Source: Yinghuangia seranimata
GTDB lineage: Bacteria; Actinomycetota; Actinomycetes; Streptomycetales; Streptomycetaceae
Direction: 5' to 3'
DNA length: 64,000 nucleotides
Assembly (NCBI RefSeq): GCF_029953285.1
Contig: NZ_JASAOI010000014.1
Span: 248,001-312,000 of the forward strand
This document shows positions 324 through 29,212 of this stretch, one piece after another. Every line of letters begins with the position of its first letter. Within the stretch, counting starts at the first letter, position 1. The notes beneath the pieces are model-generated. The model ran no database searches. It was not told the origin of the DNA and worked only from the letters and a program-made list of their open reading frames with translations. The position numbers and the translations under genes were made by a program.

Positions 324-478
324 CCGCCCCTCCCGCTAGTTGCCAAGGTCGTTAGCGCGGACGGCCTGCGGGTCAAGCCGCCCCCATCACCCCGGGACAG
401 GCCACCAGGACCGCGTCAGATCCACCGCGGCTTGACGCGCGGGACGGCCGCGCGAAAATCAAAAGGCGGGAGGGGCGG
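324..478 (+). repeat. Palindromic arm A of composite element copy 1
   Basis: An imperfect long inverted repeat running from a CCCCTCCC end to a GGGAGGGG end. It is homologous to arm B (28380-28531, minus strand) and arm C (28876-29028, plus strand). The core CACCCCGGGACAGGCCACC is retained, but the inner hairpin is more decayed than in B and C: GGTCAAGCCG replaces the TGTCAA-loop hairpin. The longest frame conserved between B and C meets a stop here, which argues against a protein. Confidence 0.7.
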
Positions 479-3324: not shown

Positions 3325-4572
3325 TCACCCGGCCGACGGCTCCCGCCGCATCAGCCCCAGGAACGCCTTCTCCACATCGCTCCGCGCCAGCACCCCGTAC
3401 ACGCTGCCGTCCTCCTCGACGACCAGGTACTCCGTCGCCGGCGTCGCCCGCAGCGCCACCAGCAGATCCTCCCCGGCCAGCTCCGCCGACACCCGCAGGC
3501 CCGGCTGCAGATCGCGCGCCAGCGGACCCACCGCCACCCACGGCCGGCGCTGCTGCGGCGTCGCCGCCACCCGCGACTCCCGCACCAGCGCCATTGGCTC
3601 GCCGTTCCGGTCCACGACCACCAGCGCCTGCGCACCCGCCTCACCGGCGCGCCGCAGCGCCTCCGCCAGCGGCAGATCGGCCTGCACGGGAATGGCCCGG
3701 CGCGTCAACGGCCGCACCCGCAACGACGGCAGCCGCTCCCGCAACTGCTCGCCGCGCAGCGACTGGACGGCGCCCGTCCACATGAAACCGGCGATCAGAC
3801 CGCCGCACACCACCGTGTAGAGGCGCATCCACCCGTCGTCGTTGCGCGACCACACGACCGCCACGACCAGCACCGCGACCGCCAGCACGCGGCCCGCCCA
3901 CGACGCGGCCACCGTGCCCGCCATCGGCCGCTTCGTCGCGCCCCACACACCCGCCCGCAACATGCGGCCGCCGTCCAACGGCAGCCCCGGCAGCAGGTTG
4001 AACACCGCGACCATCAGGTTCGACACCGCCAGCAGCGCCACCATGCGCCCGGTCAGCGACTCGACGTCCAACGCCAGCCCCAGGCCCCAGAAACCGCCCG
4101 CCAGCGCCAGCGACAACGCCGGCCCGGCCGCCGCCACCGCGAACTCCCGGCCCGCCGTCTCCGGCTTGTCGATCTCCGAGACCCCGCCCAGGAACTGGAT
4201 CGTGATGCGGTGCACCGGCAACCCGAACCGCAGCGCCGTGAGCGCGTGCGCCAACTCGTGCACCAGCACCGAGATGTACAGCAGCACCGCGAACAGGAAC
4301 GCGACCAGGTACTTCCACGACTCCAGCTGCGGGAACAACCGCCCGAACGTCGGCGCGAACAACAGCGTGATGATCAGCGCGATCGCGAACCACGACGTCG
4401 ACACATAGACGGGGACGCCGAACGGCCGCCCCATCAACAGCCCGCCGCCCGAAGCGCCCTGGCCCTGCGGACCGCCCGGACCGGACCCCGACCCGGAACC
4501 CGCACCCGGCGCCGCGCCGCCCCCCGCCCCCTGCTGCCCGCCCCACCCTTGCGACCCGCCAGATGAACTCAC
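3325..4572 (-). CDS. Site-2 protease family (M50) metalloprotease with CBS domains
   Basis: 415 aa, GTG start at 4572. A Gly/Pro/Ser-rich disordered N-terminus (about 1-45) is followed by four to six hydrophobic segments carrying the zinc site HELAH (residues 105-109) and the distal PGLPLDGG motif (D200). A cytosolic pair of CBS domains occupies about residues 260-405. This is the FtsH-independent intramembrane protease type related to SpoIVFB and mycobacterial Rip-like proteins; CBS domains in this family bind nucleotides and may gate activity. The substrate is probably a membrane-anchored regulator but is unknown. It is divergent from trmI (81 bp between starts), so the two may share a promoter region. 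Confidence 0.88.
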   Translation of the reverse strand: MSSSGGSQGWGGQQGAGGGAAPGAGSGSGSGPGGPQGQGASGGGLLMGRPFGVPVYVSTSWFAIALIITLLFAPTFGRLFPQLESWKYLVAFLFAVLLYISVLVHELAHALTALRFGLPVHRITIQFLGGVSEIDKPETAGREFAVAAAGPALSLALAGGFWGLGLALDVESLTGRMVALLAVSNLMVAVFNLLPGLPLDGGRMLRAGVWGATKRPMAGTVAASWAGRVLAVAVLVVAVVWSRNDDGWMRLYTVVCGGLIAGFMWTGAVQSLRGEQLRERLPSLRVRPLTRRAIPVQADLPLAEALRRAGEAGAQALVVVDRNGEPMALVRESRVAATPQQRRPWVAVGPLARDLQPGLRVSAELAGEDLLVALRATPATEYLVVEEDGSVYGVLARSDVEKAFLGLMRREPSAG

Positions 4573-4652: not shown

Positions 4653-5537
4653 ATGTCTGAACCGACCGGTGCCGCCCGTCGTCGCGGGCCTTTCCAGGTC
4701 GGGGACCAAGTGCAGCTCACCGACCCCAAGGGCCGTCACCACACCTTCACCCTCGAAGCGGGCAAGGCCTTCCACACCCACAAGGGTTCGTTCCCCCACG
4801 ACGAACTCATCGGCGCCCCTGAGGGCACCGTTGTGCGGTCCTCCGGGAACTTCGACTACCTGGCGCTGCGGCCTCTGCTCCCCGACTTCGTCCTGTCCAT
4901 GCCCCGCGGTGCGGCGGTGATCTACCCCAAGGACGCGGGGCAGATCATCGCGATGGCCGACATCTTCGCCGGCGCCCGCGTCGTCGAGGCCGGCGTCGGC
5001 TCCGGCGCGCTCAGCACCTTCCTGCTGCGCGCCGTCGGCGACCAGGGGCAGCTGTCGTCGTACGAACGACGCCAGGACTTCGCGGACATCGCGAAGAAGA
5101 ACGTCGAGCGCTACTTCGGCGGCCCGCACCCCGCGTGGAAGCTCACCGTGGGCGACCTCCAGGACAACCTCGTCGAGACCGACGTCGACCGCGTCATCCT
5201 CGACATGCTCGCTCCCTGGGAGTGCCTCGAGGCGGTCCACAAGGCACTCGTCCCCGGCGGCCTGGTGTGCTGCTACGTGGCCACCACCACCCAGCTGGCC
5301 CGCACCGTCGAGACCATGCGCGCCATGCGCTGCTTCACCGAGCCCCAGTCCTGGGAGTCGATGGTGCGCACGTGGCACGTCGAGGGTCTCGCGGTACGCC
5401 CCGACCACCGCATGATCGGGCACACCGGCTTCCTGGTGACCGCCCGCCGCATGGCCGACGGCGTCGACGCCCCCATGCGCCGCCGCCGCCCCTCCAAGGG
5501 CTACGACAGCGAGGACTACGAGGCCCCCGAGGTCTGA
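4653..5537 (+). CDS. trmI: tRNA (adenine-58-N1)-methyltransferase
   Basis: 294 aa from the ATG at 4653. It makes m1A58 in the T-loop of tRNA using S-adenosylmethionine and works as a homotetramer. The N-terminal beta domain (about 10-75) is followed by a Rossmann methyltransferase domain with motif I VVEAGVGSGAL (about 110-120) and the DRVILDMLAPWE motif that carries the catalytic Asp. The length is normal for actinobacterial TrmI. An upstream in-frame ATG-like extension has no homologous content, and the 4653 start fits a leaderless promoter. In actinobacteria this gene commonly lies just upstream of arc/mpa, as here. A strong hairpin follows. Confidence 0.93.
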   Translation: MSEPTGAARRRGPFQVGDQVQLTDPKGRHHTFTLEAGKAFHTHKGSFPHDELIGAPEGTVVRSSGNFDYLALRPLLPDFVLSMPRGAAVIYPKDAGQIIAMADIFAGARVVEAGVGSGALSTFLLRAVGDQGQLSSYERRQDFADIAKKNVERYFGGPHPAWKLTVGDLQDNLVETDVDRVILDMLAPWECLEAVHKALVPGGLVCCYVATTTQLARTVETMRAMRCFTEPQSWESMVRTWHVEGLAVRPDHRMIGHTGFLVTARRMADGVDAPMRRRRPSKGYDSEDYEAPEV

Positions 5538-28295: not shown

Positions 28296-28341
28296 ACGAG
28301 GGCTGCGCCGACGGCTTGGCCTGCCTCGTTGTGGCTTTTTT
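28296..28341 (+). terminator. Terminator with T-tail after helY
   Basis: ACGAGG (28296-28301) pairs with CCTCGT (28324-28329) around a second small hairpin, followed shortly by a run of six T (28336-28341). It lies immediately outside the composite repeat. Confidence 0.6.
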
Positions 28342-28379
28342 GCTGCACCGTTCCTGACCTGGCTGGTGGCGGTGTCCTG

Positions 28380-28531
28380 GCGCCCCTCCCGATTTTGGAT
28401 TGTCCGCGCGGCCGAACGGCTGTCAAGCCGCGGTGAACCGGTCCTCAACAGGCGGCCTGTCGCGGGGTGGTGGGGGCGGCTTGACAGCCGCCCGTCCGCG
28501 CAGACAACCCGGCAGCTGTCGGGAGGGGCGC
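28380..28531 (-). repeat. Palindromic arm B of composite element copy 2
   Basis: An imperfect inverted repeat with about 50-bp arms (28380-28434 and 28475-28531) and a loop of about 40 nt. The arms close with CCCCTCCCG/CGGGAGGGG. Inside are two small hairpins around the same hexamer: CGGC-TGTCAA-GCCG and GGCGGC-TTGACA-GCCGCC. Compared with arm C the stems differ but stay paired. Confidence 0.8.
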
Positions 28532-28875
28532 GGGGTGTGAAGGCGCGCGTGTCCGGGTTCGCGCTGCCGGGCTGCGGTCCCAGCGTGGTGGGGCGGGCGG
28601 TACCGGTCGGGGGCGGGCCGTGCCGGCGGGTCGGTCGAGGGGCTGCGGCCACCGAGGCTTACTGAAAACCTTTTTCGTGTGACGGATCGGGCAATGTGTT
28701 GCCACATCCGCCTCTTGACGGAAAGCCAAATAGGGATTCGGCGCCTTAATATACCGATTTGGTGCGATATAAGACTCGAGAAGGCCGGTCGCCGGCCGTC
28801 AAAGGTGGTCGCCCGCCCCACCACGCTGGGACCGCAACCCCGCGACGCAACGCACTCGATGCGCCTCCACACCGC

Positions 28876-29028
28876 CTCCCCCTCCCGATAGTTGCCGCGG
28901 TTTTAAGCGCGGCCGGGCGCCTGTCAAGGCGCCCCCACCACCCCGGGACAGGCCACCTGTCGAAGACCGGTCCACCGCGCCTTGACAGGCGACCGGCCGC
29001 GCGGACAATCACCAATCGGGAGGGGGAG
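28876..29028 (+). repeat. Palindromic arm C of composite element copy 2
   Basis: The homologous inverted repeat in opposite orientation. The small hairpins are GGCGCC-TGTCAA-GGCGCC (about 28916-28933) and CGCC-TTGACA-GGCG. The loop region CCACCACCCCGGGACAGGCC is shared with arms A and B. Confidence 0.8.
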
Positions 29029-29212
29029 GTGGCCTCCGCCGGCAGACAGGTCCGGGACGGTGCATGGCAGGAGGTCTCCACGCTGCAACGGAACAGCCCC
29101 ACCCCGGACCCCCGGTCACTGTGCCGTCACGTATGCGAATCACCGAATCGGCCCTGGTAGGCCCCTTTGGCGTCACACTTGCGTCACCGGGTGAACTGGC
29201 CGTTTCGGCGGG

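Follow-up and report, generated by a model that had tools for sequence, protein, structure and literature searches.

A 721-bp inverted-repeat element of Yinghuangia seranimata, probably a member of a lineage-specific, dispersed family of non-coding mosaic repeats

Results

Anatomy of the element

We analyzed a window of 64,000 nucleotides from Yinghuangia seranimata (contig NZ_JASAOI010000014.1, positions 248,001 to 312,000). Positions without a contig or locus prefix are counted from the first base of this window. We found a 721-bp inverted-repeat element at 28344-29064. Its arms (28344-28509 and 28899-29064) are 166 nt long and 82% complementary, and each in turn forms a long hairpin (28383-28530 and 28879-29025). 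An initial annotation had described an inverted-repeat element of 720 bp at 28345-29064. The element is real and the last base was right; the true first base is 28344.

The left end motif, TGCACCGTTCCTGACCTG (28344-28361, plus strand), has 93 matches in the genome at up to 3 mismatches, versus 6 for a reversed control. The right end motif (29047-29064, minus strand) is identical to it at 16 of 18 positions, so the 18-bp terminal repeats noted earlier are present but not fully identical. Inside the ends lie two hairpin cores, which we call U. The left core belongs to subfamily A (28383-28530, plus strand; nhmmer, 4.1e-23; covariance model R1, 153 bits), and the right core belongs to subfamily B (28879-29025, minus strand; nhmmer, 1.5e-22; R1, 151.5 bits). 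Both units are part of the alignment behind R1, and these two R1 scores are not independent. A 27-bp inner boundary motif at 28573-28599 (plus strand) recurs as its exact inverse at 28810-28836 (minus strand), as had been reported. The centre is an imperfect palindrome (28683-28710) with a score of 6, versus at least 13 (13 to 25) in 20 of the 25 pair centres examined.

A tail module, GTCACGTATGCGAATCACC...GCGTCACACTTGCGTCAC, follows at 29126-29187 (plus strand), and its first 19 bases have 39 aligned copies in the genome at up to 2 mismatches. The element is U-centre-U'-tail and is longer than first described; the core had been outlined earlier and the tail left out. The initial annotation also passed over solo units, gene-bearing pairs, and a second inverted-pair element. 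The last of these (C98:247809-248561) runs across the left boundary of the window, with a U core at 325-475 (minus strand; nhmmer, 2.1e-43).

Folded as DNA, the full 721 nt reached -301 kcal/mol (z, -18), and none of 20 shuffled sequences folded as well. The left unit alone (28340-28600), folded as RNA, gave a z of -4.1, with 1 of 200 shuffles as good. The tail region folded no better than its shuffles (z, +1.6).

At least 100 U units form a mosaic family in the genome

Uniqueness of the interval in the genome had been named in advance as grounds against its being such an element. We searched the genome (9.8 Mb in 113 contigs) with the window element and found 107 matching places. A hidden Markov model (HMM) of the core was then run on 366 kb of merged loci fetched around the matches. 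It gave 151 hits, which became 100 U units once overlapping, mostly antisense palindrome matches were removed; the genome therefore holds at least 100. The core measures about 150 nt (aligned cores, about 141 to 152 nt) inside a unit of about 250 bp.

We found 26 inverted pairs, and the plus/minus arrangement was identical in all 26. This agrees with the earlier description of two units pointing outward from the centre; in two pairs, C53 and C77, the right unit is divergent and no end motif was detected in it. The remaining 48 units were counted as solo. Pairs, solo units, and tails together make 84 element groups: the 26 pairs, of which 6 have a tail; 22 solo units followed, in matching orientation, by the 62-bp tail; 1 unit that has its tail on the opposite side and lies near a contig end; 25 units that lack both a partner and a tail (22 near contig ends); and 10 lone tails (6 near contig ends). 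Where an unpaired unit has a tail, the tail is downstream and in the same orientation in 22 of 23 cases, the 23rd being the one near a contig end. The gene-bearing composite on C36, described below, is outside these counts.

The pair gaps are 148 to 473 bp in 25 of the 26 pairs, and the 26th encloses a gene, for the protein P0001. No transposase gene was seen inside any of the 26. A pattern for the commonest centre palindromes matched 12 sites among 41 genomes searched, all of them in Y. seranimata, and by coordinates all 12 adjoin a U unit. The first 19 bases of the tail gave one 2-mismatch match in each of two genomes out of 40 relatives and none in the others. In several copies the left ends are tandemly repeated at a spacing of about 25 to 63 bp, and another kind of outer flank is found repeatedly beyond the end motif. 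We concluded that the family is a mosaic of a few modules: the U unit, a usually palindromic centre, the tail, and an alternative outer flank.

Tandem end motifs at about 60 bp were also seen at solo left ends (C26:131-271, C98:233869-233948, C24:547-623, and C25:2451-2531), and some solo elements contain variable numbers of roughly 57-bp repeats, resembling a VNTR. For 30 of the 84 groups, the nearest contig end is no more than 700 bp away, which accounts for 30 of the 226 ends of the 113 contigs. The family, through its repeats and palindromes, thus breaks assemblies.

Dispersal of the elements and the orthologous site in congeners

We compared 138 flanking stretches of 400 bp, taken 300 to 700 bp outside the groups. 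Nine of the 138 matched another stretch, in 5 pairs, the longest match being 255 bp. With the 720-bp interval as the query against 40 relatives, 13 had matches of 27 to 85 bp and nothing longer, many of them in the GC-rich inner part, and two congeners gave no match at all. Plasmid records matched the window element over 29 to 38 bp (10 records). The exact 19-base tail was found in one metagenome-assembled genome (MAG) record among genome contigs, a search from which our own or near records were possibly excluded; by eye, similarity to that record ends after about 21 nt.

The genes flanking the window element are syntenic in both congeners and align at 72 to 85%. U is absent from the orthologous slot in both, with a best model score of 10.8 bits with filters off. 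This supports a gain of U in the lineage of Y. seranimata, on the basis of a single site compared with two outgroups; the orthologous intergenic DNA has diverged to the point that the exact junction is unreadable. One of the congeners has a wider slot, in which open frames of 204 and 125 amino acids, among others, lie on the minus strand. We also noted a different tandem repeat, of about 112 bp, together with open reading frames in a congener's orthologous slot (L223:1480-1696).

We found no target-site duplication in 23 two-ended elements; the best of 768 combinations of offset and length had a z of 2.3. The transposase domain Y1_Tnp (PF01797, RAYT) had no match in the genome, and controls were matched in 5 of 14 genomes. 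The initial annotation had suggested a non-autonomous mobile element as the first of three readings, the others being a divergent pair of structured RNAs and a chromosome-organizing site. Dispersal of at least 100 units, unrelated flanks, and the absence of U in two congeners support the first of these. Taken together, these comparisons suggest that the family is lineage specific and was once mobile.

Two inverted pairs enclose an AbiEi/nuclease-like gene

The pair on C75 encloses the gene for P0001 (326 amino acids). On C36, its closest paralog (73% identity) likewise sits between two U units, of which the right one is truncated where the contig ends. The two genes (L095:4257-5237 and L243:1501-2469, both minus strand) are at different loci: to the left of the C36 composite, the flanking DNA has just two matches of 23 to 27 nt to the C75 locus, and to the right the contig stops before the flank. 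Each gene is intact, and their dN/dS is 0.23 over 323 codons. A third, distant paralog has no U within 1.5 kb.

P0001 matched the Pfam family AbiEi_4 at the cutoff (25.1 versus 25 bits). Nothing in NCBIfam scored above the cutoff, and a PDB sequence search found nothing. We built an AlphaFold model, which is weak (three sequences; pLDDT, 66; pTM, 0.40). It matched the AbiEi antitoxin 6y8q (E, 9e-4; TM, 0.39 by target). Its C-terminal part matched the catalytic domain of I-Bth0305I (3r3p_B; probability, 1.00; TM, 0.71 by target; root mean square deviation, 4.3; E, 0.012), and mitoribosomal chains ranked between these two structures. P0001 is thus weakly predicted to be an AbiEi-type protein whose C-terminal half resembles the homing-endonuclease domain of I-Bth0305I. 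I-Bth0305I, the product of a free-standing homing endonuclease gene, shares with P0001 the predicted fold of the C-terminal domain; P0001 differs in its N-terminal AbiEi-type domain and in the U pairs flanking its gene, and any nuclease activity is putative.

We infer that the two gene-bearing pairs are the best candidates for the parental form, of which the gene-less pairs would be derivatives. The AbiEi-type gene could equally be a mere passenger of its U pair, because the third paralog has no U within 1.5 kb.

U-like hairpins in other genera

We searched 121 genomes with R1 and scored 25 candidates per listed genome. Among these candidates, matches at an E value of 0.001 or lower came from Y. 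seranimata, one congener, and one other genus. With a gapped pattern, 249 genomes were searched, and the hairpin turned up in five relatives, four belonging to one genus and the fifth to another. Eleven of 248 relatives had one match to the pattern; 5 of these share a hairpin beside a plasmid-backbone block, and 6 look unrelated by eye. A lone pattern match is no evidence, because a reversed control scatters similarly.

The hairpins of the relatives scored 27 to 51 bits with R1 at 6 loci. In five of them the hairpin begins 210 to 216 bp past the start of the backbone block, which also occurs in Streptomyces plasmids, adjoins GntR and replication genes in 2 of 4 stretches read, and has a weaker match in pIJ101. 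A phage collection searched with the block gave 3 weak matches. We label these loci AICE-like from their Pfam neighbors: GntR at L203 (hairpin and block at 4793-5144), RepSA and FtsK/SpoIIIE at L204, FtsK/SpoIIIE at L205, and a serine recombinase at L206. At L207, no mobile-element gene of these kinds was recognized among the 2 of 6 neighbors scanned. The congener hairpin (L208:5093-5224) has no block and lies about 1.3 kb from smpB-ssrA (tmRNA, 3381-3747).

Most of the 28 predicted pairs are nearly invariant among 62 aligned cores, and 3 show two-sided compensatory change. Between our units and the relatives, outer-stem positions 1, 2, 4, and 5 (in a comparison in which the outer stem of L208 was misparsed) and inner-stem positions 6, 8, and 9 change on both sides and mostly still pair. 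The compensatory changes in the block-side relatives represent few events, because those five hairpins are closely related. The middle stem (H2) is mostly kept in our units (83 counted, 12 missed). As parsed, 2 of the 6 remote sequences do not maintain its pairs 2, 4, and 6, and 3 show a two-sided change at pair 2. The stretch CGGCAGCTATCGGG occupies an equal position in some of our units and some block-side hairpins.

Stem order, CAAG/CTTG arms, and internal-loop letters are common to the AICE-like hairpins and U. The AICE-like hairpins differ from U in that they occur, by the pattern, as a single copy per genome and adjoin the backbone block, with no tail or inverted pair seen. A sequence-only HMM recovered the congener hairpin alone (14.7 bits, versus 4.5 for the best of 1,200 shuffles) and missed the five block-side hairpins. 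From the R1 scores (27 to 50 bits for these five), the pairing changes, and the common stretch of letters, we consider the block-side hairpins probably akin to U.

AICEs of the pSAM2 type are described as replicating by rolling circle with RepSA (PMC3218068). U might be a relic of rolling-circle replication, either an sso-like minus-strand site or another non-coding site of an AICE backbone, that spread via single-stranded DNA. The R1 matches, the nearly constant spacing from a plasmid-type block, the neighbors at L203 to L206, and CGGCAGCTATCGGG speak for this origin, as do two RepSA genes in the Y. seranimata genome (C10:10914-12164 and C35:95502-96968). Several findings count against it, namely, the block-side hairpins missed by the sequence-only HMM and the neighbors scanned at L207. 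In addition, there is no U within several kilobases of either RepSA gene, the single U there being 10.7 kb from one of them, and the block was not found in the 79 scanned segments of the genome or in the DNA surrounding the two RepSA genes. Nor was U found in four Streptomyces plasmid stretches or in pIJ101 (best score, 11.5 bits). We consider this origin unlikely, and to call the hairpin an sso (minus origin) would be a guess. The GTTTCTTTACTGGATCAAGG block may resemble the nick region of pC194; a plus-origin (dso) reading of it is not claimed.

Coding and RNA readings of the hairpins

Stops are present in all six frames of the window element, in which the longest open stretch is 159 codons, and 1-nt indels separate the units. 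A coding reading is therefore unlikely, and the element appears non-coding, as first proposed. Known RNA families were rejected as well: no Rfam family reached its gathering score in the window, in line with the initial annotation, and two matches lay below threshold at an E value of 5 or lower.

The units might still be genes for structured RNAs, or regulators acting as RNA, whose transcripts would be paired hairpins. The long stem is kept, with compensatory changes, and the internal-loop letters are conserved while the terminal loop is variable, as would be expected on this reading. We nevertheless regard it as improbable. The units are nearly symmetric on both strands, the inverted pairs carry DNA palindromes at the centre, and no Rfam family is present. 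Amplification was seen in one genome, and elsewhere just distant single relatives were seen.

Gene context of the copies

We classified the gaps that hold elements by the direction of the neighboring genes. The gene calls were heuristic (made with our own codon scorer), and elements at contig ends or overlapping calls were left out. Convergent genes flanked 17 of 44 elements, versus 43 of 210 control gaps (Fisher P = 0.018), and divergent genes flanked 5 of 44, versus 48 of 210 (P = 0.10, not significant). A cruder gene caller, used without a control, placed 21 of 56 elements between convergent genes. By eye, tail ends are often near the stop of a gene.

A terminator-like side effect would fit the convergent bias. 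Placement between convergent genes and tails near stops would also be expected if the elements were functional bidirectional terminators or chromosome-organizing sites, selected at their positions. The effect is modest, however, and rests on heuristic gene calls, and the depletion between divergent genes is not significant. Purging of insertions near promoters predicts an equal bias, and at the single orthologous site compared, U is missing from the congeners and so is not needed there. Selection of this kind thus seems to us a poor prospect.

Discussion

Our data suggest, with a probability of about 0.72, that the interval at 28344-29064 is a member of a lineage-specific, dispersed, mostly non-autonomous family of non-coding mosaic elements that spread as mobile DNA, moved by an enzyme acting in trans and serving as transcription barriers in place. 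The elements would have spread within their own lineage, as suggested by their many unrelated sites and by one orthologous site without U in the congeners, and most copies would be non-autonomous. The likeliest mover would be an enzyme acting in trans on folded hairpins. The two gene-bearing pairs, which encode the AbiEi/homing-endonuclease-like protein, may be the parents. In place, the hairpins are probably passive transcription barriers between convergent genes.

Bacterial palindromic repeats of high copy number are often associated with Y1 transposases (REP/RAYT), and REPs measure some 20 to 40 nt. Like BIMEs and REPs, our family has many copies and is intergenic, palindromic, alternating in orientation, and mosaic (100 units, 26 inverted pairs, and 84 groups). 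Unlike REPs, its hairpins are about 150 nt long in modules of about 250 bp, with pairs of about 720 bp. A REP/RAYT system was rejected, since the genome has no match to Y1_Tnp. MITEs are short, non-coding, dispersed elements with terminal inverted repeats. Our elements share these traits, and two longer, gene-bearing forms share their ends. They differ from MITEs in having neither a target-site duplication nor a recognized transposase, and the solo units are one-ended, with a different right end. A MITE of a DDE transposon was rejected because no target-site duplication was seen. The two longer forms with matching ends carry a gene that is AbiEi/nuclease-like and not a known transposase.

BIMEs are described as high-copy intergenic palindromic units that alternate in orientation and are joined into composites (PMC2817692), and REPINs likewise as high-copy palindromic composites (PMC3116915). 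We found no paper describing our family by title or start of abstract in open-licence PMC text. The family is known in kind, as interspersed mosaic repeats that are BIME- or MITE-like, and is new in size and anatomy. Its machinery is perhaps new too.

One doubtful but specific form of the proposal is a new kind of mobile element. Its gene would combine an AbiEi DNA-binding domain with a homing-endonuclease-like nuclease and would lie between hairpin repeats of about 250 bp that are recognized as folded DNA. Some 25 gene-less derivatives and 22 one-ended relatives would then have arisen without target duplication. If the mobile reading of the family is true, a large family without Y1 and with nuclease-like, gene-bearing forms would offer a route to a new mechanism of dispersal, and the possible relatives of its hairpins on conjugative elements are part of that interest.
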